Shown here in pieces: positions 9,613 through 38,163 of a stretch of 64,000 bases of DNA; position 1 is the stretch's first letter; each line of letters starts with the position of its first letter. Source of the stretch: Lachnospiraceae bacterium (lineage in GTDB: Bacteria; Bacillota; Clostridia; Lachnospirales; Lachnospiraceae); contig CABIZF010000002.1 of NCBI GenBank assembly GCA_902363135.1, positions 1 to 64,000 on the forward strand, in the 5' to 3' direction. The position numbers and the translations under genes are program-made. The notes beneath the pieces were generated by a model that was not told where the DNA came from, did not search any database, and saw nothing but the letters and a program-made list of their open reading frames with translations.

Positions 9613-9841
9613 ACCAGAGATGGGAAATTGGATAGCTGGGAACGTGCTGCACGGTTTCAATTCATGGACGGAATGATAAAGGATGATGAAAATGAATGGG
9701 TTAGTTGCACAAAAATTTGACTCGATTACAATGAATGATTTTATGGGAATGCAAAATTATGATAAAATACATTATAGAGACAGAAAGAGATAAGCCAATG
9801 AAACATCATATAATTGATGGAATTTACTGGAGGTGTCTGAG

Positions 9842-12800
9842 ATGAGAGTTGATAATATTAACATGCTTAACGATACAATGGCTATAATGGATAGAGGTTA
9901 TTACGAAGTAAATGGAAAGCGAGTAAACCTGAAGCTTTCCGAAAAAGAAAGAAAAGAAATATTCGTATTTCTGCCAAAGGATGTAAAGCGAATTGCTGAT
10001 AACAAGGATTTTCAGCATGTTCATGTAATGGGAAGGATTGGTGTTGGCTGTGTTAACATGGATTCTTATTCCCTGGCAATCAAAAGATATTCGGATTGCT
10101 CATATATGTTCAGTAAGAAATCAAAACCGATTCTTGTACTGAATCTTGCAAATCCAGTAAATCCAGGTGGCGGTGTACGCCGCGGATCAAAGGCCCAGGA
10201 AGAAGATCTCTGCAGAAAAAGTTCGCTTCTGTTATCACTGGAGAGCTTGGAGGCGTCTGTATATTATAAATACAATAAATCTTTGAATACTTACATGGGA
10301 TCGGATGCAGTTATGATCACTCCTCAGGTTGAAATTATCAAGGATGAAAATGGTGATTTGCTGGATGAGAGCGTTATAGTATCCGTTATGACATGTGCTG
10401 CACCAATGTTGAGAGACGGCATGGAGGGACTGACCGATCAGGAATATCGGGATATGGTTTATGGCCGTATTACCGGAATGCTGAAGGTGGCCGCATATCT
10501 CGGGTATGAAGTTCTGATTCTGGGTGCATTCGGATGTGGAGCATTTTCAAATGATGCCCATGTCGTTTCAGACCTGTTTTATAAGGCACTGAAGGAATTT
10601 GATTATGATGGAATGAAGGCAAAAGATTTTTTCCGCAGAATCGATTTCGCCGTGCTCAGCCGTTCTGCAGATCAATATAATTATAAAGAATTTGCCAGAA
10701 ACTTCAGTGATTTTTATCGTGAAGAAGATGCGGAAGATGTTGCGGATGCTCTTGAGAGAGTAAAGGAGACGGAAGTAAACCTGGATAGAATCAGAGGAAG
10801 CCTTGTTGGTGGAGCAATTGGCGATGCTTTGGGATATGCGGTTGAATTTCTGCAGGAGGACCAGATATTCAGAAAGTATGGCTCTGAGGGAATTACCGAA
10901 TACGATCTGGTGAATGGTAAGGCTCTGATCTCAGATGATACTCAGATGACATTATTTACTGCAAATGGAATACTGGTAGGTGATACCAGATTATCTATGC
11001 GCGGTATCGGAGGTGATCCAAAAGCCTATGTTCCAAATGCATATCTTGATTGGTTGAAGACTCAGGAATCGGATATTAACAGTGTAAATCATCATGAGCG
11101 ATATACAGAAAAGGGTGGATATTCATGGTTGCTGGATGTTCCGGAACTGTATGTTAGACGTGCACCCGGTAATACCTGCCTCTCTGCACTGGAAACTAGG
11201 GCAAAAGAGGGCTATGTAGGTAGCTTTATCAACAGTCCGATTAATAGAAGCAAGGGATGTGGCGGTATTATGCGTATCGCACCATTAGCTTTGAAATACA
11301 GGTCGGGTGAGAATTTTTATGGAGATATAGAGCAGATTGATATGGAAGCGGCAGAGCTTTCTGCCATTACCCATAGCCATTCTCTTGGATATATGCCATC
11401 AGCTGTAGTCAGCCATATCATAAGCAGAATTCTTTGCTCATATGACGAAATGAGCTTAAAGGATATGGTTCTTGAAGCAAGAGATTCTGTTTCAAAGCTT
11501 TTTGCCGGAGATAAGAATCTTCCGGTACTCGTTGATATTATTAACAGAGCTGTTCGATTGTCTGAAAAAGCTGACGCTGATGATCTGGATAATATCCATG
11601 CCTTAGGTGAGGGCTGGGTTGCAGAAGAAACCTTGGGAATTGCACTGTATTGTGCGCTCAAATACCAAAATGATTTCTCAAAGGCCATGATTACCGCAGT
11701 CAACCATAAAGGAGACAGTGATTCCACAGGTGCCGTTACAGGAAACATTCTCGGAGCACTGATTGGATATACTGCAATTGATAGTAAATGGAAAAAGAAC
11801 CTGGAACTCCTGGATGTGATCCTGGAGGTTGCGGATGATTTATGCCACGGCTGTCAGATGTCCGAATATAGTCATTATCAGGATCCGGCGTGGATTACAA
11901 AATATATGCATATGCATCGCTATCATAAACCAAAGAAAAATCCTGAGTACACATTTTTCTGGCTGGACAATGAGAAATACGGTGAGTTCAGCAACTGGTA
12001 TCAGAGAGAATTTGTGATTGATGATTTTCGTTATTTCTGTGTTGAACAGTATATGATGGCGCAGAAGGCAAAGCTGTTTCATGATTCTGTACGATATACG
12101 GCAATTATTCGTGCGAATTCTCCGAGAGGCTGCAAAGCATTGGGCAAGCAGGTAACACCATTTGACGCTAAGGTGTGGGATGCAGTTAAATATGATATCG
12201 TAAAAGCCGGAAATAAAGCAAAGTTTGAACAGAATCCGGATCTTATGAAATTGCTTTTATCAACAGGTGACAGTATCATGGCAGAAGCGAGCCCAAAGGA
12301 TGAGATATGGGGTATAGCACTTGATGCTGAAACTGCAAAGCAGATGGATCCTGAAAAGTGGCCGGGCCAGAATCTGTTAGGAAAAATCCTGATGGAGCTT
12401 AGAGCAGAGTTCAGAACAGATCAGACCGGATCACCGGCAACCGAGCTTCGAATGATCAAAGGCGATATTACAGAGCAGTCAGATGTGGAAGCAATCGTAA
12501 ATGCTGCCAATACCAGTCTTTTAGGTGGCGGTGGTGTCGATGGTGCTATTCACAGAGCTGCAGGAAGACAGCTGCTGGAAGAGTGCCGAAAGCTGAATGG
12601 CTGTAGAACCGGCGAAGCAAAGCTGACCGGTGCATATAAGCTGCCTTGTAAGTACATTATTCATACGGTAGGGCCGATCTGGCATGGCGGCAATCAGGAC
12701 GAGGAGAAGCTTTTAGCAGATTGCTATAGAAATTCCCTTCAGATAGCTGTTGATCAGGGTATACGCAGTGTAGCATTCCCATCTATTTCTACAGGTGTTT

Positions 12801-13021
12801 ACAGCTTTCCTAAAGATAAGGCAGCCGGTATAGCTTTGAGAGCAGTAAATCAGTTTGTCGAAGCAAATCCGGGAAAAATGCACCTTATTGAATGGGTGCT
12901 GTTTGATGATGATACGCTGAGTGTTTATAAGGATGCGTTAAGCAAGCTTCAGATAAGTAAAATCGTGGGTACACCGATGTTGGATTCGATTAACATGATG
13001 TTGAGAGACGGACTTGTATGA
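9842..13021 (+). CDS. Four-domain ADP-ribose eraser: PARG-like, ARH/DraG-like, NADAR, macrodomain
   Basis: 1059 residues; ATG 9842 chosen because GGAGG lies 8 bp upstream. Domain 1 (about 1-290) is a TIGR02452 / microbial PARG catalytic domain: [20 protein letters not shown] gives the PARG signature GGG-x7-QEE, and [12 protein letters not shown] follows near 228. Domain 2 (about 313-680) is a DraG/ARH ADP-ribosylglycohydrolase: [40 protein letters not shown] carry the metal acids. Domain 3 (about 700-860) is NADAR/YbiA-like: [44 protein letters not shown]. Domain 4 (about 868-1040) is a macrodomain: [38 protein letters not shown]. All four act on ADP-ribose linked to proteins, nucleobases or as free metabolites. 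No signal peptide, so cytosolic. No ADP-ribosyltransferase lies nearby. Active-site motifs look intact in each domain. Confidence 0.9.
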
Positions 13022-14406: not shown

Positions 14407-15510
14407 TTATGCTGCCAGCATCCTTCTTGCTTCTTCACGGATATTGATCGCTGCATTTCGATCTCTGTCCATCTCATTTCCACACAAACAGCGGTAAACT
14501 CTTTCGGATAATTTCAGCTCTTTTTTTATCTTTCCGCATTTACTGCATTTTTTGCTTGAAGGGAAAAAGCGGTCTACCTTTACTAATTCTTTTCCCTTCC
14601 AGGCAAGCTTATAATCCAGCATGTTCCGGAACATCCCGTATCCATTATCCTGTACACTTTTCCCAAAATGCAGACACTGGCTCATCGCTTTCATATCAAT
14701 ATCTTCTACCGCGACTATATCGTACTGGTCTGTGATCCTGCGGCTCAGTTTATGCAGATAGTCTCTTCTCTGGCTTCGTATTTTTTCATGGCACCTGGCA
14801 ACTTTCTTTTTCTGCCGCACATAATTGCGGCTCCCTTTTACACATCTCGACAGTTTACGCTGTTCCCTTACCAGCCTTTTTTCATTTTTTCTGAAGAATC
14901 CTGCTTCTTCCATCTCAATCTCTTCTGAAAACACTGCCATCCCCTGCATCGCATAATCAATCCCAAGTATTTTGGCGTTGCTGTAATCCTTATCTGCTGT
15001 TTGGTTTTCGCAGCTGTATCCTTCATACAGCAGACTTGCAAAATACTTTCCGGATGGCTCCATACTGACTGTCACTGATTTCAGACGGCAGTTTTCTGCA
15101 GGCTCCCTGTGTTTTTTCATGGGGACCCATTTTAATTTTGGAAGCCGGATCCGGCTTCCTTCTACCAGAATATTTCCGTTGACCACATTTGTTGTGTAGC
15201 TGTTTTTAGAGTGATGTTTTGACTTGAAACGTGGAAATCCAACCTTCTGATCACGGAAAAAGTTTTTATATGCTTTCTCCAGATGAAGCTGAACATTTGC
15301 CAGTGCTAGCGAATCTACTTCTTTCAGAAACGGATACGCCTTTTTATACATAGCTGGTGTATTCTTTAACATCTTCTTTGTCTTTTTATACTCCTGGATC
15401 TTATCATTAAGCATCTGGTTGTACAGAAAACGACAGCAGCCAAATGTTTTTCCAAGGAGTATCTTCTGTTCTTCTGTTGGATAAATACGGTAACGATATG
15501 CTATGTTCAA
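14407..15510 (-). CDS. tnpB: TnpB RNA-guided nuclease
   Basis: 367 residues, a usual length for the shorter TnpB proteins. The RuvC triad is complete: D185 in ILGIDYAMQG, E269 in VEDIDMKAM, D350 in DRDRNAAINI. The zinc ribbon is present (CSKCG...CLCG). The N-terminal part (YRYRIYPTEEQK, LYNQMLNDKI, GFPRFKSK) is the usual wedge/REC region. TnpB cuts DNA at the donor joint using omega RNA and so helps retain the element. It overlaps the end of tnpA by 4 bp (ATGA type). It is intact although its partner is broken, so it may persist by itself. Confidence 0.9.
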   Translation of the reverse strand: MNIAYRYRIYPTEEQKILLGKTFGCCRFLYNQMLNDKIQEYKKTKKMLKNTPAMYKKAYPFLKEVDSLALANVQLHLEKAYKNFFRDQKVGFPRFKSKHHSKNSYTTNVVNGNILVEGSRIRLPKLKWVPMKKHREPAENCRLKSVTVSMEPSGKYFASLLYEGYSCENQTADKDYSNAKILGIDYAMQGMAVFSEEIEMEEAGFFRKNEKRLVREQRKLSRCVKGSRNYVRQKKKVARCHEKIRSQRRDYLHKLSRRITDQYDIVAVEDIDMKAMSQCLHFGKSVQDNGYGMFRNMLDYKLAWKGKELVKVDRFFPSSKKCSKCGKIKKELKLSERVYRCLCGNEMDRDRNAAINIREEARRMLAA

Positions 15511-19745: not shown

Positions 19746-19926
19746 CTATAAATAATTCTGAAAAGCAATATGCACACCGCATATGGATACATAAAAACAA
19801 GGATAAGGTTCGAATAACGGCGTGTCGCATTCTCGTTACTTCAGTGATGAGTTAGACGCGCAAATTTTTTTGCTAAATAACAGAACATATGTTTACTTTT
19901 GCGTATACATATGGTATAATGTTTAT

Positions 19927-20376
19927 ATGGAGAAAAACATATTTGATATTAATAAAACAGATCTATCATATGGTAGAGGGTATGTCTATTCATTACAGTA
20001 CCATCTTGTCTGGTGTACGAAGTACAGGAAAGAGGTGTTAAAAGACGGGATTGATACCGAATGTAAAGAAATGTTACAGGATCTTGCCGCAGAATATAAC
20101 TTTCAGATTCTGGCAATGGAGGTTATGCCGGATCATATTCACCTGCTAGTGGACTGTAAACCTCAGTTCTATATTTCTGATATGATCAAAATCATGAAAG
20201 GAAACCTCGCCCGTCAGATGTTCCTTGTACATCCGGAATTAAAGAAGGAGCTGTGGGGCGGGCATTTGTGGAACCCATCTTACTGCGCGGTGACGGTCAG
20301 TGACAGGAGCAGGGACCAGGTTCTTACCTATATTGAGGGACAGAAGGAAAAAGAAAAGAGAAGGGTAAGAACCTAA
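19927..20376 (+). CDS. tnpA: IS200-type TnpA transposase
   Basis: 149 residues from ATG 19927 (MEKNIFDINKTDLSYGRGYV). The open frame extends upstream to 19822, but that part lies in the left-end hairpin. Motifs: LVWCTKYRKEVL, HUH in MPDHIHLLVD (about residues 62-71), and the catalytic Tyr in QVLTYIEGQKEK near 135. It joins and cuts single-stranded ends with a covalent Tyr intermediate. Length and motifs are complete, so it may be active. Followed 38 bp later by tnpB. Confidence 0.9.
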   Translation: MEKNIFDINKTDLSYGRGYVYSLQYHLVWCTKYRKEVLKDGIDTECKEMLQDLAAEYNFQILAMEVMPDHIHLLVDCKPQFYISDMIKIMKGNLARQMFLVHPELKKELWGGHLWNPSYCAVTVSDRSRDQVLTYIEGQKEKEKRRVRT

Positions 20377-28008: not shown

Positions 28009-31000
28009 GTGGAGGAAAAAGCAGCGCAGGAAGCGGCGGCAGCACAAAAGGCTGCAGAAGAGACCGCAGCGCAGGAAAAAGCAGCGCAGGAGATCACGTA
28101 TCGCGTGACCTTTGAAGCGCATGCGACGGATTACGGAAGCATTTATGTCCGGGGCGAATCCGGTCCGATCGCATCTGTTTCCAATTATTATAAGGAAGTA
28201 AAAGAAAACGGATCCTTTGCATTTACGATCCACGCAAACGATGGCTATGAGGTAGAGCATGTCCGTTATGCCGATACGAATGCGGAGCTTCCGAAGAATG
28301 CACAGGGCGCTTATGAAATCGCAGCTGTGACAAGAAATGTAAAGGTAGTAGTTACATATAAGATTGTTCCACAGGAGACTGCAGATGCTGCAGTGGAGAC
28401 GGAAGCTGACGAAGGACAGACCGAAGCGCCGACGGATGAGTCTGAGACGGAGGAAGACCGGGAGGCAGAAACTGAGGTCGGAACAGAGAACGCAACAGAA
28501 GAAAGTACGGAGGCAGAGTCCGAGTATGAGACGGAGCCGGGTACAGAGGTGGAAAGCGAGACAGAATCGGAGAACGAAGAAGAAATTTTGATGCCGGAGT
28601 TTCATTACAATGGTGTCTGCAATGGAATTGCAGTAGCTATCCAGGCTCCGGAAGGGGTATTCCCGGAAGGAACAAAAACAGTCCTTGCAGCACCATCGGC
28701 GGAGAGTCTTGCAGCGGCGGCAGCGGCGGCAGGTCAGGATGTATCCGACCTGATGGGCGTGGATATCACATTCCGATATGACGGAAAAGAAATCCAGCCG
28801 ACAAGTGCAGTAAAGGTATCCTTTAGAGCAGCGGAAATCGCGGACGCAGAGATTTCAAATGTTTATCATGTGTCAGACGGTGGTGCCGTGCAGGCGGTTA
28901 CAGCGAGCCAGTCAGGTGCAAGCCTGGGTTTTACTGCGGATAGCTTTTCTACCTGGATATTCCCGACCGCAGGCGGAGCAGTCGCTCCGGCAAGCATTCT
29001 GGAGCCGGAGACAAGCATCGCAACGTATGTATTTAACGCAGACGGCGCAACCGTTGACACACAGTACATTACGAGAGGTGATACATTGTCCGAGCCGGCA
29101 GCTCCGGTGAAAGAAGGACATCGGTTCATCGGATGGTACGTAGGAGAGACACCGGTAACCTTTGGTACGGTTAGCACAGTATCCGAAACGGCAGAGATCA
29201 TCGTCAAGGCCAGATTTGAGGAAGTATATTATGTCTTCTTCCATAATCCGGAAGGCGCGGTAGTCGCGACGAAGGAAGGACGCGCTGGCGATGAGATCAC
29301 GACATCGGATGTGACCTTTGCAGTGGGCGCAGAAGAATCCATTACCGGATGGTATTATTCCGGAAGTGCAGTCGAGAGTGTGACACTGTCAGACTCCAAT
29401 GTCGATTTATATGCAAAGGTAGAAAAAGGCTTCTGGGTGACCTATGATTCAGATGGCGGAAGCTATGTTGCACCGGAATTTTATCCGGCAGGAGAGACCG
29501 CAGAATTGTCAGCACAGCCGACGAAAAACGGCTACAGCTTTGAGGGCTGGTATGACGGTAATGCCGAAGTCACCAGTACAACAAAGAGCGTTTCCGTAAA
29601 AGCAAAATGGAAAGAAAATTCAAGCGCACAGTATCGCGTGATCTACTGGCAGCAGAAGGTGACCGATGATAAGAACGCGATGGATGCACAGAAGACCTAC
29701 GCATATGTAGCAACAGAAACCAAAACAGGCAGGCCGGGAACGACGGTGAACGTAAATGCAATCACGAAAAGCTTTAACGGATTTAAAAAGAATACCGTGA
29801 ACAGCAAGAGCGTTACGATTGCGGCAGACGGCAGCACGATTATGAATGTATATTATGATCGTGTTCTGTGTACGGTGAATTATTATGTAAGAGAAAATAG
29901 AAAATGGAATATCAAGCAGACCGTCACCGGTCTGTACGGGGCGAACCTGAAGGAAGGAGAATGGTGGACCGATTATTATTGGTACGCTCATAAGGATGGA
30001 GGAACCGGTTGTATTCTTCTGACCTCCTATGATTTCAAGACGGCAGGTTATGCAAATAATGAAGGAAATATTAGTTCAGATGGCGTTGTGACGACCTGTA
30101 ATTTTTACGGAACAAGAAAAGAAACCGGTGGTAAGGTTTATTATTACAACGAGCAGGCAGACGGCAGTTTCAAACTGGTAAACACAGTTACTACCGGCGG
30201 TGGCACATTGACAATTCACCAGAAGTATGCGGGCTATGATTTGTATAAGTATACGACTGGAAGGATTAGTGGGGAGCCGACAACTGCAGAATTCTGGAAA
30301 AATAAGACCTCTTGCAAGGATGGAGAGAAAGCATACGAGAAACCTGTTTATATTGCAAGTAAACTGCAGTCATTCCGGTTGGATTACTCAAACGGTGGAG
30401 AAGTTCAGCATCATGAAACGGTAAAATATACCGCATCCCTGAACGGATATGATGCAAAGTTTACACCGACAACCAGACCGGCTACGGTAGATGCAAATTA
30501 TACGTTTGATGGCTGGTACAGCGATCCGGAGTGTACGAAGAAATTTGATTTCAATACGACAATGCCGGCAACGAATATAGTAGTATATGCAGGCTGGAAG
30601 GCACCGGAAGTCCGGGTAACGGCACACAGAAGCCCGGAAGATACGACGGGTGTAAATGTAGAGGCAGCATATGGCGAATCGGTAGATGAGAATCTGCTTC
30701 CGGCGATTTCGTATGATGCGGAGACACAGGAATTTCTTGGATGGTTTACAAGAAATGCAGACGGCTCTTACAGACCGTGGGATTTCAGTACAAAAATCTA
30801 TTCCGATGTAGATCTGTATGCACGTGTGATCAGTAAGGGCACCTTTAAGGTAACCTATGATGCGAATGGCGGAACAGGCACCGTAGAAGATGGCAGAGCA
30901 TATGCACAGGGCGCAAAAGCAGATGTGAAGGCAATCACCGGAATTACAGCGCCGACAGGAAAGACATTCTTATACTGGAGCCTTAACGCTGATGGATCGG

Positions 31001-34000
31001 GTAAGAAATATTATCCGAATAACACGATCGAAATCGAAGGAGACATCACCTTATATGCAATCTGGGGTGATACGACCACAACCTTACTGACCTATAACGG
31101 AAACGGTGGAGCAACCAGTGATGGTAAAACAAAAGTAGTGGTATCCGGACTTAAGAATAACCAGAAGGTAAAAGCAGAAGGTGCAATTTTTACCCGTACC
31201 GGTTATAAGTTTATCGGATGGAGCACAAACTCTGAGGCAACAGCTGCAGAATATGCAGCAGGTGCGGATGTGATCGTTCATGCGGATGAAACAGTGAATG
31301 TGCTTTATGCAGTCTGGGAAATCCGGAACGATTATCGGTATACGGTTCATTATTACTGGAACGACACAACAGAAAAAGTAGCAGAGGATAAGGTTGTTAC
31401 GAATCAGACGTATAACGAAACAATAACGGAAAGCCCAATTGCAATTGAGGGATATACGCCTGTAAATTCTGGCAGCCAGGAAATGGTAATAGATGCGGAG
31501 AATAAAACGATTACATTCTATTACTATAAGAACGTAGGACTGACAGCAAACAGCGATACGAAGGTCTATAATGGGCAGGAGCAGAGCGTAAGCGGATTTA
31601 CCGGAGCACCGGAGGGAGCAGATTTCTCGGCTATCCAGGTGGGTGCAAAGGGAACAGACGCTGGCGAGTATCTGGCAGCATTTGCTGAAGGAACAATCGG
31701 AACCGTTGATAAAACTGAAAAGTATATTGTAAAGGGGGCTACGGACGGCAAGCTGACGATCAAGCCGGTAGCGGATGAAGTGGTAGTAACTATCGAGGGA
31801 AACCATGACAGCAAGGTCTACGACGGAACAGAGCATGTGGTAACCGGCTATGAAGTAACGGAAATCAGCAATGTACTGTATACGAAGGACAACTTTAGCT
31901 TCAGCGGAAATGCAGAAGCAAAGCGTACAGCTGTAGGAAAGACCGATATGGGCCTGACGGCAGCAAACTTTAAAAATGAAAGTGCGAATTTCAGCAATGT
32001 AACCTTTAAGGTAACGGATGGCTATATGGAAATTACTCCAGCTGGAGATGCAGTAGTAGTAACCATTGAAGGAAACAATGCCAGCGCAGTCTACGACGGA
32101 GCAGAGCATAAGGTAACCGGCTATACGGTAGTATCCATCAGCAATAAGCTGTATCAGGAAAGCGATTTCAGCTTCAGCGGAACAGCGGAGGCGAAGCGCA
32201 CGGAAGCCGGAACGACCTATATGGGTCTGAAGGAAGAGCATTTTAAAAACAAAAATGCAAACTTCAGTAAAGTAATATTCAATGTAACAGATGGTTATAT
32301 GGAGATCACACCGGTAGCGGATGAAGTGGTAGTAACCATCGCAGGAAACAATGCCAGCGCAGTCTACGACGGAACAGAGCATAAGGTAACCGGCTATAAG
32401 GTAACCGCTATCAGCAATGAGCTGTATAAGGAAAGCGATTTCAGCTTCAGCGGAACGGCCGAGGCGAAGCGTACGGAAGCCGGAACAACCTATATGGGCC
32501 TGAAGGCAGAGGATTTTGCAAATAAGAGTGCGAACTTCAGCAATGTAACCTTTGAGATAACAGACGGTTACATGGAGATCACACCGGTCACGGAAGAAGT
32601 GGTAGTAACTATCGTAGGAAACAATGCCAGCGCAGTCTACGACGGAACAGAGCATAAGGTAACCGGCTATACGGTAGTATCCATCAGCAATAAGCTGTAT
32701 AAGGAAAGCGATTTCAGCTTCAGCGGAACAGCGGAGGCGAAGCGCACGGAAGCCGGAACGACCTATATGGGTCTGACGGCAGAGGATTTTGCAAACAAGA
32801 GTGCGAACTTCAGCAATGTAACCTTTAAGGTAACAGATGGCTACATGGAGATCACACCGGTCACAGATGAGGTGGTAATAACCATCGAAGGAAACCATGA
32901 CAGCAAGACCTACGACGGAACAGAGCATGTGGTAACCGGCTATGAAGTAACGGGAATCAGTAATGTACTGTATACGAAGGACAACTTCAGCTTCAGCGGA
33001 AATGCAGAAGCAAAGCGTACAGCTGTAGGAAAGACCGATATGGGCCTGACGGCAGCAAACTTCAAAAACGAAAGTGCAAACTTCAGCAATGTAACCTTTG
33101 CGGTGACAGATGGCTACATGGAAATTACTCCGGCTGGAGATGCAGTAGTAGTAACCATCGTAGGAAACAATGCCAGCGCAGTCTACGACGGAACAGAGCA
33201 TAAGGTAACCGGCTATACGGTAGTATCCATCAGCAATAAGCTGTATAAGGAAAGCGATTTCAGCTTCAGCGGAACAGCGGAGGCGAAGCGCACGGAAGCC
33301 GGAACGACCTATATGGGTCTGAAGGAAGAGCATTTTAAAAACAAAAATGCAAACTTTAGTAAAGTAATATTCAATGTGACAGATGGTTATATGGAGATCA
33401 CACCGGTAGCGGATGAAGTGGTAGTAACCATCGCAGGAAACAATGCCAGCGCAGTCTACGACGGAACAGAGCATAAGGTAACCGGCTATACGGTAGTATC
33501 CATCAGCAATAAGCTGTATAAGGAAAGCGATTTCAGCTTCAGCGGAACAGCCGAGGCGAAGCGTACGGAAGCCGGAACGACCTATATGGGCCTGAAGGCA
33601 GAGGATTTTGCAAATAAGAGTGCGAACTTCAGCAATGTAACCTTTGAGGTAACAGACGGCTACATGGAGATCACGCCGGTAGTGGATGAAGTGGTAGTAA
33701 CCATCGCAGGAAACAATGCCAGCGCAGTCTACGACGGAACAGAGCATAAGGTAACCGGCTATACGGTAGTATCCATCAGCAATAAGCTGTATAAGGAAAG
33801 CGATTTCAGCTTCAGCGGAACAGCGGAGGCGAAGCGCACGGAAGCCGGAACGACCTATATGGGTCTGACGGCAGAGGATTTTGCAAACAGGAGTGCGAAC
33901 TTTGCCAATGTAACCTTTAAGGTAACAGATGGCTACATGGAGATCACACCGGTCACAGATGAGGTGGTAGTAACCATCGAAGGAAACAATGACAGCGCGG

Positions 34001-37000
34001 TCTACGACGGAGAAGAGCATGTAGTAACCGGCTATAAGGTAACCGACATCAGCAATGAGCTGTATGCGGAAGGCGATTTCGACTTCAGCGGAAATGCAGA
34101 AGCAAAACGTACAGCCGTAGGAAAGACTGGGATGGGTCTGACGGCAGCAAACTTCAAAAACGAAAGTGCGAACTTCAGCAATGTGACCTTTAAGGTAACG
34201 GATGGCTACATGGAAATTACTCCAGCTGGAGATGCAGTAGTAGTAACCATTGAAGGAAACTATGACAGCGCAGTCTACGACGGAGCAGAGCATAAGGTAA
34301 CCGGCTATAAGGTAACCGCTATCAGCAATGAGCTGTATGCGGAAGGCGATTTCGACTTCATCGGAACAGCGGAGGCGAAGCGTACGGAAGCCGGAACGAC
34401 CTATATGGGTCTGACGGCAGAGGATTTTGTAAACAAGAGTGTGAACTTCAGCAATGTAACCTTTAAGGTAACAGATGGCTACATGGAGATCACGCCGGTT
34501 ACGGAAGAAGTGGTAGTAACCATCGAAGGAAATCGTGACAGCGCGGTCTACGACGGAACAGAGCATGTGGTAACCGGATATGAGGTAACGGGAATCAGCA
34601 ATGTACTGTATACGAAGGACAACTTCAGCTTCAGTGGAAATGCAGAAGCAAAGCGTACAGCTGTAGGAAAGACCGATATGGGCCTGACGGCAGCAAACTT
34701 CAAAAACGAAAGTGCGAACTTCAGCAATGTAACCTTTAAGATAACGGATGGCTACATGGAGATCACACCGATCACGGATGAAGTGGTAGTGACCATCGCA
34801 GGAAACAATACCAGCAAGGTCTATGACGGAACAGAGCATGAGGTAACCGGTTATGATGTGACTGGCATTAGCAACCCGCTGTATGAGGAAACAGACATCC
34901 ATTTCAGTGGAAATGCGGAAGTCCGAGGAACCAATGCAGACACTTATGAGATGGGTCTGAGTGCAGACGACTTTACAAATATAAGCGGCAACTTCGCAAA
35001 TGTGAGGTTTGATGTAACGGACGGCTTCCTCAAAATCACAAAACGTGAAGTGGAGTTTACAGCCAACAGTGCATCTAAGGCGTATGATGGAAAAGCATTG
35101 ACGGATGATGGTTATACACTCACGGGCGGAAGTCTGGCGGAGAATCAGAATGAAACAGTTACCATAGTCGGCAGTCAGACACTGGTAGGCTCCAGCGACA
35201 ATGAGATTACAGAAGTAAGGATTGTTGCGGGTGGAGCAGTGACCAGAGCACTGGGTGAAGACGTAACGGATAACTACGCAATTACAACCATTAAGGGAAC
35301 TCTCACCGTCACTGATGGAACAGAGAATGATCCGGTAGATCCGGGCAAGGTTGTAACGAAGACACATGAAGATGCAGCTTATGATCTTGGTGAGACAGTA
35401 ACCTTTACTATCAGCGTAACGAATATTTACGACACCGCCAAGACCATCACGATCACGGAGCTTCCGGGCGTTGCGATCGAGGGAGCAGATGCTTCCAAAC
35501 CGAACGTTCTGGTAGTGACGAATGTACCGGCAGGTGAGACGATTACTGCAACGGCGACTTACACAATCACCTGGCAGGATATCGCAAATGGCAGCTTTGT
35601 CAATACCGTAAAGGCAGAGTTTTCCGATGGCAAGCCGTTTGAGACCACTGATACGGTAACTGTGGTCGATCCGGTATATGATTATACGATGGAAAAAACA
35701 GCGAAGGTACCGGAACATGAAAGTGGCATGGTTAAGGAAGGCGAGACGATTGGTTACACGATCAGGGTTCAGAATACCGGAAATCAGCCGCTGGAGGAGA
35801 TCAGGCTCACGGATACGCTGAACGCAGCAGGTACGATCGCAAACATCCGGGGTGCAGAATATGTACAGGATGGAAAGGTAACGATATTTACCATAAGAGA
35901 TCTGCAGCCGAATCAGACGATTACCATTACATATGAGTATGTGGTATTGGATGCAGATAAGGGCAAGACGATCAGCAACGCAGTAGTTGGTCCGAATCCG
36001 ACAGATCCGGAGAAGCCTGGTAAAGAAGGTGATACGGAGACAACCGTTGAGGATCCGAAGCTTGAGGTGAACAAAGAAGTAAAGGCGATCACAGCAGCGG
36101 ATGGCACAGAGAAGGATGTGACTGCAGAGGCGGCGCTGAACGACATTATTACCTACACGGTAACGGTTAAGAATACCGGAAATGTAGTTCTGACCGATGT
36201 GCATGTAGCAGACAGTCTGGAGGGCATCAAGCTGGCAGCGGGTCAGAGCTTTGAGTTCAGAAAGTTGGAAGCAGGAGAAACACAGACGATTACCTATACG
36301 TATCAGGTACAGGAGAAGGATCTCGGATCGATGATCGTCAATAAGGCAACTGCTACGGCAAAGGTTCCGGAAGATCCGGAGGATAAGCCGCAGCCGAAGG
36401 ACGAGGACGAGAAGGAAGTACCAACCGAGGACCGCAACCCGTCGCTGAAGGTAGAAAAAGAAGTTACATCCAAAGCAGCGGCAGAAGATGGCAGGTACAT
36501 TGCAGGCGAGACAATCACTTATAAGGTGACAGTGACAAACAACGGTAATTTGACACTGAAGGATGTGGTTCTGAAGGATGTATTGACAAGAGCAGACGGC
36601 ACGACAGTTCTGCCGGATGGCTGGGAGTCAGACGGACAGAAGATCGGTGAAATGGCACCGGGAGCAACCAGAGTATTTGAGTACAGCCACAAAGTGACAG
36701 AAGAGGATCTTGGCGGCGTGCTGAAAAATGCAGCGACAGCAAGTGGTGAACCGAAGCTGCCGAATCCGGATCCGGAGAAACCGGAACCGAAGCCGGAAGG
36801 TGAGGATGAAAAGGAAGTACCGATCGAGGATCGCAAACCGTCACTGAAGGCAGAAAAGAAGGTAACGTCCAAACCTGCAGCAGAAGATGGCAAGTACACC
36901 GTCGGTGAGACAATCACCTACGAAGTAACCGTAACGAATACAGGCAACCTGACCCTGAAGAACATCCACGTGCAGGATATCATGACCCGTCCGGATGGCA

Positions 37001-38163
37001 CACAGATGATTCCGAGCGGACTGACGAATCAGGTACAGACGATTGAAGGACTGGAGCCGAATGCAAGCGAGACGCTGAGATACACACATGTAGTAACGGA
37101 ACAGGATCTTGGCGGAGAGCTGAAGAATGCAGTGACTGTATCTGGTGAGCCGTCTGTTCCGAAGCCGAAGCCGGATCCGGAGAAACCGGAGCCAAAGCCG
37201 GAGGATAAGACGGAGGAAACTGTAATCACAGAGGATCCGACAAACTGCAGCATTATCGTTACGAAGAAACTGACCAATATGATGGATGAGGCACTGGTTC
37301 TGGATAACGCAGTATTCTATGTGGCACTGTTCACGGATGAGGGACTGACGAACCGGATCGGCGAAGTCAAGAAACTGACCTTTGGTGCAAACCAGAGCAC
37401 AGCAACAGCAGTCTTTGCTAAGATAAAGCGTGGTACTTACTACGTGGCAGAGACCGATGAAAATGGTAAGGTAATCACAAGCGGAGCATACAACAACGGC
37501 GCATTTGTAGCACAGTACGCAGCAGGTCAGAAGGTAGAAATCAAAGAAAACGGAACAGCAGCAGAATTTGCATTCGCAAATCAGTTCCTGGTTCTGCCAA
37601 GTGAGTATGATCTGTCGAAGCGTGTGACGATCGTGAAGTCCGTACAGACAAAGAAGGGGAAAGAACTGAAGACAAACGAAACCTTCTATGCCGGAATTTT
37701 CAGTGACGCGGCACACACACAGCTCGCAGAAAATGTAGACCAGAACATCGTTCCGCTGGCAACAAATGGAACAGCAGGTGCAAGAAATGAGATTGAAGTA
37801 ACCTTCGCACCTGGCGCTTCGACAACGCTGTACATTGCAGAGGTTTCAGCAGATGGTGTACCGGTAGAACAGAATGCAGCATTCGAATATACCGCAAGTA
37901 TTGATCAGAATGTGATCACGCTGTCTGAGGACACCGATGATGTGACCGTAAAGATCACGAATACTTCGAAGAAGGATGAACCGGAGACCGAGTGTGAAGA
38001 CAACCGGCAGTCAGAATCCAATAAACCGAAGGCAGCTGCAAACAGTGTAAAGACAGGCGATGACACCCCGCTTATGACATTTGTACTTCTGCTTCTGTGC
38101 TCAGCGTCTTGCATGATGCTTCTGGCAGGCAGACGTAAAAAAGAGGACGGACAGGATAGATGA
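28009..38163 (+). CDS. Giant cell-wall-anchored adhesin (body)
   Basis: 3384 residues from GTG 28009. The frame is open back to 27424, so the original protein was about 3600 residues starting at 27312. Domains (from GTG): Ala-rich helix to 30; beta-repeat 32-122; acidic Glu/Thr linker 123-193; adhesin-type beta domain 194-325; several InlB/Flg_new-type B-repeats 335-1105 (motifs FIGWY, FEGWYDG, YAIWG); MucBP-like [11 protein letters not shown] at about 1106; twelve 91-residue MBG-like repeats 1255-2346; another MBG unit; five DUF11-like repeats 2443-3070 ([12 protein letters not shown]); two Cna-B-like domains 3071-3325; a sorting end [10 protein letters not shown], hydrophobic helix and [10 protein letters not shown]. 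Sortase would attach it to peptidoglycan. Likely role is binding host or bacterial surfaces. Confidence 0.85.
31771..35046 (+). repeat. Twelve tandem 273-bp repeats in adhesin
   Basis: Each 91-codon unit carries VVVTIxGNxxSxVYDGxEHxV and TGYxVxxISNxLY, then FSGxAEAKRT and [14 protein letters not shown] ends. Units 1, 5, 9 and 11 are of one type ([18 protein letters not shown]); units 2-4, 6-8 and 10 are of another ([16 protein letters not shown]); unit 12 has diverged. Units 1-4 and 5-8 match position by position, indicating duplication of a 1092-bp block. Confidence 0.9.

Follow-up and report, generated by a model that had tools for sequence, protein, structure and literature searches.

What does a bacterium gain from one protein that carries four different ADP-ribose erasers, with no ADP-ribosyltransferase (ART) found beside it? 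The gene that raises this question lies in a 64,000-nucleotide stretch of a Lachnospiraceae genome (assembly GCA_902363135.1, contig CABIZF010000002.1, positions 1 to 64,000, forward strand), hereafter referred to as the window. An earlier note, made from the letters of the sequence, had described four fused ADP-ribose hydrolase or binding modules with their active-site motifs in place, and had named non-significant domains in profile searches as one point on which this description could fail. Our analysis confirms the description, since all four domains (PARG, ARH, NADAR, and MacroD) were significant in profile searches and their active-site motifs are intact. The gene and its parts are as follows:

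9842..13021, + strand: four-domain ADP-ribose hydrolase gene, 1059 aa (profile matches, motifs, AlphaFold2 model)
9842..10741, + strand: bacterial-type PARG domain, aa 1-300 (PF10021, 7.9e-24; TIGR02452, 1e-41; fold match 3sih; catalytic loop aa 109-121)
10718..10837, + strand: single continuous predicted helix, aa 293-332, forming the PARG-to-ARH joint (AlphaFold2, pLDDT block means 91-98)
10775..11911, + strand: ARH/DraG-type ADP-ribosylglycohydrolase domain, aa 312-690 (PF03747 profile, ARH fold)
11945..12421, + strand: NADAR domain, aa 702-860, Glu-type as in YbiA (PF08719, 1.2e-50; TIGR02464; aligned with 8bau)
12437..12961, + strand: MacroD-type macrodomain, aa 866-1040 (profile, NAAN and GGGGVDGA, fold)
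9759..9845, + strand: upstream open frame of 28 codons, ending in a stop that overlaps the start of the eraser gene (ATGA); possibly a coupled leader

The PARG part passed the cut-offs of PF10021 and TIGR02452, contains the GGG..QEE loop, and has the PARG fold. For the ARH part, the PF03747 match and ARH fold are accompanied by a candidate catalytic Glu and putative metal-site Asp residues, and E335, D365, D366, D625, and D627 were invariant in an alignment of 69 proteins. Which of these are taken as the catalytic Glu and which as metal-site Asp is our own presumption, aided by published passages. The same part missed the DraG/Tri1 NCBIfam equivalog cut-offs (TIGR02662, 70.7 versus 337.05; NF041672, 68.7 versus 490), and two ART toxin/immunity entries, 6dre and 8za7, were among its fold matches. 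The macrodomain scored above its profile cut-off, carries both NAAN and GGGGVDGA in a MacroD fold, and had the MacroD/YmdB chains 4iqy and 5cb5 as its nearest structural neighbors (44-51% identity, rmsd 1.3-1.6). The NADAR call is sequence-based, with no NADAR chain among the 50 structure-comparison matches listed: the domain matches its profile and has a Glu at the site of E125 of the Phytophthora enzyme, as in the YbiA subfamily, and it also matches TIGR02464, a riboflavin-intermediate N-glycosidase model. Alignment with 8bau placed its key residues at E735, K742, E815, D820, and W823, the roles of which we took from passages of PMC11543638.

To what extent is this protein a singular case? 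Among the best 120 of 1363 homologs, 66 carried all four domains, 40 carried PARG, ARH, and Macro, and 12 carried ARH and Macro, with single instances of ARH-NADAR-Macro and of PARG-ARH; moreover, a sister group at 89-90% identity had all four domains in each of its 14 listed members. A one-off fusion is thus ruled out, and the search that the earlier note had proposed for the same domain set in other proteins revealed a family trait where the note had seen an unusual order. What stands of that remark is that our literature search, which worked mostly at the level of titles and the starts of abstracts, found no description of a PARG-ARH-NADAR-Macro chain. The NADAR name reportedly goes back to de Souza and Aravind (2012), a work in which related fusions may also be listed.

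We also scanned a collection of species genomes using two peptide patterns, both within the PARG part, by which PARG-less relatives are invisible and long matches are over-represented. The scan found 423 stretches encoding relatives, and the best 80 were retained. Their titles named mostly Clostridia, a few Erysipelotrichaceae and unspecified bacteria, one Kiritimatiellae record, and two Muribaculaceae records, and many referred to the gut or stomach of ruminants or other animals. Together with L081 from a viral contig, these yielded 81 core loci (designated by L numbers; two rows with a split ARH were counted with their kind), of which 46 were PARG-ARH alone. The core was accompanied by Macro in 17, by NADAR in 7, by NADAR then Macro in 7, and by Macro then NADAR in 1; a further locus had a NADAR piece in front, and 2 had PARG only. 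The copies in L076 and L080 are truncated or broken. As a separate observation, L041 and L069 have nearly identical core genes but are filed under Muribaculaceae and Blautia, respectively, so that one of these contigs is probably misbinned.

The distribution of the gene is patchy. At E ≤ 1e-150, matches were found in 5 of 397 genomes of one family (G015, G016, and G079 carrying already known loci and G142 matching in ARH only), and at 1e-90 in 6 of 20 genomes of the L075 genus, where the PARG part was present solely in the starting genome and the other five had ARH alone. DNA identity of 88% to L075 spans positions 9828-10830 of the window, beginning at the upstream edge of the gene, with both flanks unmatched; the L075 copy ends abruptly at about residue 330. 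This match does not extend over the 28-codon upstream frame (9759-9845). The PARG-ARH chain was not found in IMG/VR or phage records: a viral search returned 12 loci, the closest of which (L081) is a 229-residue PARG stretch cut by the contig end, the rest being distant PARG or NADAR proteins, and none of the phage and plasmid records had a place covering 80% of the query. That this is a phage or plasmid gene is therefore unsupported, with a fusion being possible at the cut L081.

Active-site motifs are widely retained among the relatives. More specifically, GGG..QEE of PARG was present in 78 of 81 (the remaining 3 retain QEE), SDDTQ/TDDTQ and GDSDSTG of ARH in 77 and 76 of 79, respectively, and NAAN and GGGGVDGA of Macro in 24 and 22 of 26. 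The NADAR motif EASxxDx[IV]WG was found in 11 of 16, and its Glu and Asp were kept in all other 5 (a Leu sets L007 apart, Trp is replaced by Tyr in L008 and L012, the L028 sequence is ECAYSDTAW, and L034 is fragmentary). Motif losses were seen in L011 (ARH and Macro motifs), L064 (SDDTQ), and L077 (GGGGVDGA). The PARG part had a dN/dS of ~0.06 and is under purifying selection; this value, the four significant profiles, and the confident model exclude a chance or frame artifact.

NADAR and Macro have joined or left the PARG-ARH core many times. On a quick tree of the core (95 rows of a biased sample, with 28 of 91 inner branches open and L075, L076, L080, L081, and L011 excluded), there are indications of at least 18 changes in the presence of NADAR and at least 21 in that of Macro. 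The NADAR of L028 lies behind Macro and scores 123 versus 232-306 elsewhere (the L034 fragment apart), and the Macro scores of L034 and L039 (141-143) are about half of the usual 267-337, which points to separate domain acquisitions.

What might such a protein do? We give an even chance to the reading that it is a stand-alone, modular, broad-range eraser reversing ADP-ribosylation by foreign ARTs. As so conceived, a PARG-ARH didomain, joined by the one predicted helix, would carry NADAR and MacroD on looser tethers. With linkages assigned to each domain by analogy with characterized relatives, PARG would take ADP-ribose off the ribose 2'-OH and phosphate ends of RNA, ARH off arginine or serine, NADAR off guanine, and MacroD off acidic residues and phosphate ends; together, they could hydrolyze many of the linkages that foreign ARTs set on cellular RNA, DNA, and proteins. 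The protein would then provide enzymatic, non-cognate immunity or repair against the ART toxins of rival bacteria and phages, a role that we infer, and its domain set may be reshaped through frequent loss and gain as threats change.

Published work, as far as the excerpts we drew upon extend, offers precedents for immunity and bears on the linkages. In PMC11833690, PARG was the one family among those tested that reversed ADP-ribosylation of the RNA 2'-OH, and E. coli was protected from RhsP2 by two bacterial PARGs; guanosine ADP-ribosylation of RNA was reversed by NADAR only, such that the PARG and NADAR linkages on RNA are complementary, and phosphate-end marks were reversed by macrodomain and ARH enzymes. 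Likewise, in passages of PMC11699363, the ARH1-type hydrolase BAH gives protection from Bxa, which is an ART from the prophage of a gut Bacteroides, and in those of PMC11543638, NADAR acts against DarT1. Section 3.8 of PMC9503650 predicts that erasers to which no ART is linked reverse what foreign ARTs have modified, sometimes in partnership with Macro and NADAR. Even a "broad" eraser need not act on all linkages, since the PARG, ARH, MacroD, and NADAR enzymes tested in the part of PMC13036486 that we used failed to remove ADP-ribose from uracil.

The gene's surroundings accord with a protein that acts alone. Its ten neighbors in the window encode a transporter, a LytTR regulator, an alkylsulfatase-type and another metallo-beta-lactamase, an IS605 TnpB, a glyoxalase, a TetR protein, a protein without a match, a creatininase, and a Y1 transposase. 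No ART, Tpt1, or DarT domain was detected among 20 window proteins scanned (the ten neighbors and ten further ones), and no HD domain, Nudix/WYL regulator, phosphatase, or chaperone among the ten neighbors. The earlier note's statement that no ART is nearby thus holds for those 20 proteins, and its term "stand-alone" agrees with the relatives as far as tested: their commonest neighbor family made up 3 of 150 and 4 of 137 neighbor proteins, in tallies covering the 25 most frequent of 148 and of 169 families, in which a single ART could be missed. This Pfam scan took in 287 of 345 proteins (≥110 aa, within three genes), the remainder being 49 third-batch proteins and 9 long ones. As a point against an immunity role, PADLOC, run on three family members, matched only the NADAR part, to model PDC-M42C (whose description field is blank), and gave no match for the NADAR-less homolog P0030.

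Several other features of the window were recorded. The IS605-type TnpB gene (14407-15510, - strand) lies 1.4 kb downstream of the eraser gene, and the Y1 (IS200-type) transposase gene (19822-20376, + strand) is separate from it, 6.8 kb downstream of the eraser gene. Positions 28009-38163 (+ strand) encode a 3384-residue, repeat-rich protein that is surface-like by its domains (DUF7507, DUF11, and Listeria-Bacteroides repeats), and the strand opposite this gene holds a 1706-codon open frame (31084-36204).

The main rival, which we consider unlikely, makes the protein a partner of Tpt1/KptA in RNA-end repair, where it would clear the ADP-ribose phosphate products or ADP-ribosylated RNA ends left by the NAD+-using Tpt1. 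At 3 of 80 loci (L021, L032, and L067), against an expectation of ~0.12-0.16 (Poisson P 0.0003-0.0006), a Tpt1 gene lay at a distance of 0.5-3.9 kb from the core gene, and in the L032 region a Schlafen-type (Schlafen-group-3) helicase, Tpt1, Smr, and PARG-ARH follow on one strand (L100, 4381-9773). Tpt1 was also present in 20 of 44 carrier genomes versus 62 of 393 other members of one family (p 1.5e-5); the three Tpt1 neighbors were known before the 44 genomes were chosen, and without them the count was 17 of 41 (p 2e-4). In the excerpted part of PMC11833690, the bacterial PARG SCO0909 was most active on KptA-made 5'-phospho-ADP-ribose RNA, yet the NADAR target there is guanosine rather than phosphate ends. 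The co-occurrence was weakened by 35 held-out carrier genomes, in which Tpt1 appeared in 7, with no enrichment over the same-family background of 62 of 393 (p 0.48), although this was nevertheless above the 18 of 293 found in another order (p 0.01). When pooled, Tpt1 and the core gene were found together in 27 of 79 carrier genomes (versus 62 of 393 and 18 of 293 others), leaving 52 of 79 in which Tpt1 was not detected, and the 20 scanned window proteins lack it, too. As a side observation, Tpt1 adjoins a second ADP-ribosylglycohydrolase gene in L104 (3703-5511), 2 kb from an ARH-only close relative.

We regard as improbable a role in nucleotide signaling or NAD/ADP-ribose salvage, whereby the protein would work with an HD hydrolase of the alarmone-hydrolase kind, presumably resembling MESH1, to clear O-acetyl-ADP-ribose, cyclic ADP-ribose variants, and alarmone-like nucleotides. 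Such a role draws on the HD gene that L035, L053, L055, and L080 (4 of 80 loci) have at a distance of 25-96 bp, with its strand shared, and on the HD domain of the same family that is fused in L078 and L079; on vWA and separate Macro genes alongside L022, L053, L076, and L080 and a Macro gene alongside L047; and on the TIGR02464 match of NADAR. However, HD occurs at 6 of 80 loci (4 separate, 2 fused; vWA at 4, separate Macro at 5) and at none of the ten window neighbors scanned, and housekeeping fits poorly with a gene found in ~1% of one family (5 of 397). In L078 (9545-11962) and L079 (5065-7476), the HD domain is fused in front of PARG-ARH, the HD_4 match of L078 (4.4e-4) being below the cut-off.

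Close homologs (designated by P numbers) revealed how the domain set can shrink. At 96-99% identity across the aligned part, some have no NADAR (909 or 918 aa) and others neither PARG nor NADAR (673 aa). Among the nearest listed homologs (P0016-P0052, P0089, and P0110-P0121), 36 lack NADAR, 12 lack both PARG and NADAR, NADAR and the greater part of Macro are missing from P0089, and P0052 has NADAR but lacks PARG. These variants are known as predicted proteins from assemblies (P0030, 3 contigs, the longest of 54,368 bases; P0110, 10 contigs, the longest of 18,211), and the breakpoints were read from the window DNA, where the following features bear on them:

11984..11991, + strand: 8-bp direct repeat GAGTTCAG, copy 1, at the start of NADAR
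12407..12414, + strand: 8-bp direct repeat GAGTTCAG, copy 2, at the end of NADAR
11932..12386, + strand: region of a 450-bp in-frame deletion that would yield the 909-aa junction (six equivalent breakpoints)
9815..9823, + strand: 9-bp direct repeat TGATGGAAT, copy 1, in the upstream frame
10606..10614, + strand: 9-bp direct repeat TGATGGAAT, copy 2, at the end of PARG

If the copies of GAGTTCAG recombined with an in-frame loss of 423 bp, the junction of the 918-aa homolog P0016 would result. The 909-aa form retains the final NADAR residues ILMELRAEF and hence arose by loss. A 12-bp repeat, GAAAAATCCTGA (11935 and 12381), was rejected as its source, as recombination between the copies would be out of frame and run into a stop at codon 705. 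Loss of 791 bp between the two TGATGGAAT copies would give the N-terminus of the PARG-less, 673-aa P0110, which also lacks NADAR: it consists of the first 21 residues of the 28-codon upstream frame followed by the end of PARG, and the predicted product agrees with P0110 in 118 of the first 120 residues. Across the 120 listed proteins, the ILMEL junction was found in 46, a GEF junction in 4, and a third in P0063, a more distant homolog (87% identical).

Do these deletions signify a decaying fusion, with the four-domain form breaking up as some domains are no longer needed? The prevalence of NADAR-less and PARG-less forms among the nearest listed homologs and the abrupt end of L075 fit such a course, but the deletions leave the reading frame intact and the motifs of the other domains in place, the PARG part has a low dN/dS, and the sister group keeps all four domains in its listed members; overall, we consider decay improbable. 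Weakest of all, and rejected as most improbable, is the antitoxin of a linked toxin of the DarT1-NADAR or DarTG type, a strict form of the earlier note's "antitoxin": NADAR and macrodomains are antitoxin domains in those systems (parts of PMC11543638 and PMC11125620), but a linked DarT is missing (none was detected in the 20 window proteins scanned, and the 3 carrier genomes of 44 that have DarT each hold it on a different contig from the core gene), and E815 is a Glu where DarT1-partner NADARs carry Asp.

As a modular, broad-range eraser, the protein most resembles the ART-less, ARG-centric conflict systems of Iyer et al. 2022, the following comparison being limited to sections of PMC9503650. 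There, as in the window (20 proteins; the relatives' tallies are partial), an ARH-type eraser is found without a linked ART, the accompanying parts include Macro, NADAR, an HD phosphatase, and vWA, as they do at loci here, and the prediction that ADP-ribosylation by viral ARTs is undone is shared with our reading. Those parts, however, are mostly separate genes, in contrast to the single PARG-ARH-NADAR-MacroD polypeptide, and the systems are reported from a number of lineages (actinobacteria, planctomycetes, and proteobacteria among them), frequently together with Nudix/WYL regulators. Nudix/WYL, phosphatase, and chaperone genes, each of which accompanies only part of those systems, were lacking among the ten window neighbors, and the word "PARG" is absent from the main text of PMC9503650. 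Viral tandem NADAR-Macro proteins in the same sections likewise combine these two domains in one chain, with no PARG-ARH part mentioned there.

Individual domains also have characterized counterparts, compared here through excerpts of the cited papers. The PARGs SCO0909 and DRB0099, for which enzymatic immunity to RhsP2 was shown (Lu et al. 2025, PMC11833690), share the intact QEE loop, whereas the PARG here is the first of four eraser domains and its activity is putative. Among ARH-type immunity proteins (BAH for Bxa, PMC11699363; pairs 6dre and 8za7), BAH adjoins its ART toxin, whereas no ART gene was found among the genes scanned here. The NADAR of DarT1-NADAR (PMC11543638) shares E735 and K742, but here no adjacent DarT was found in the window scan, and the domain is Glu-type (YbiA subfamily, as the Phytophthora enzyme) instead of carrying the Asp of DarT1 partners. 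In contrast to 4iqy and 5cb5, the macrodomain is fused as the last of four domains. The individual domains and the idea of an ART-less eraser are already known, and the four-in-one chain, its PARG-ARH core, and its natural deletions appear to be new.

In the excerpted papers, each conflict eraser is confined to a single linkage class or a small number of them, and several are bound to one particular toxin. Four erasers in one sporadic, domain-polymorphic gene, with no toxin found beside it, would make a candidate for general immunity to ART toxins. If all four activities served immunity, the loss of NADAR in most listed nearest homologs would need relaxed or changing selection, and the deletion variants provide ready-made comparisons of domain versus linkage. 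Tentatively, and with more doubt than conviction, we suggest that one polypeptide, erasing several chemically different linkages, may amount to pan-specific immunity, with a swappable eraser cassette whose domains are lost singly and in frame in wild populations by deletion between short direct repeats; conspecific strains might then survive different sets of ART toxins.
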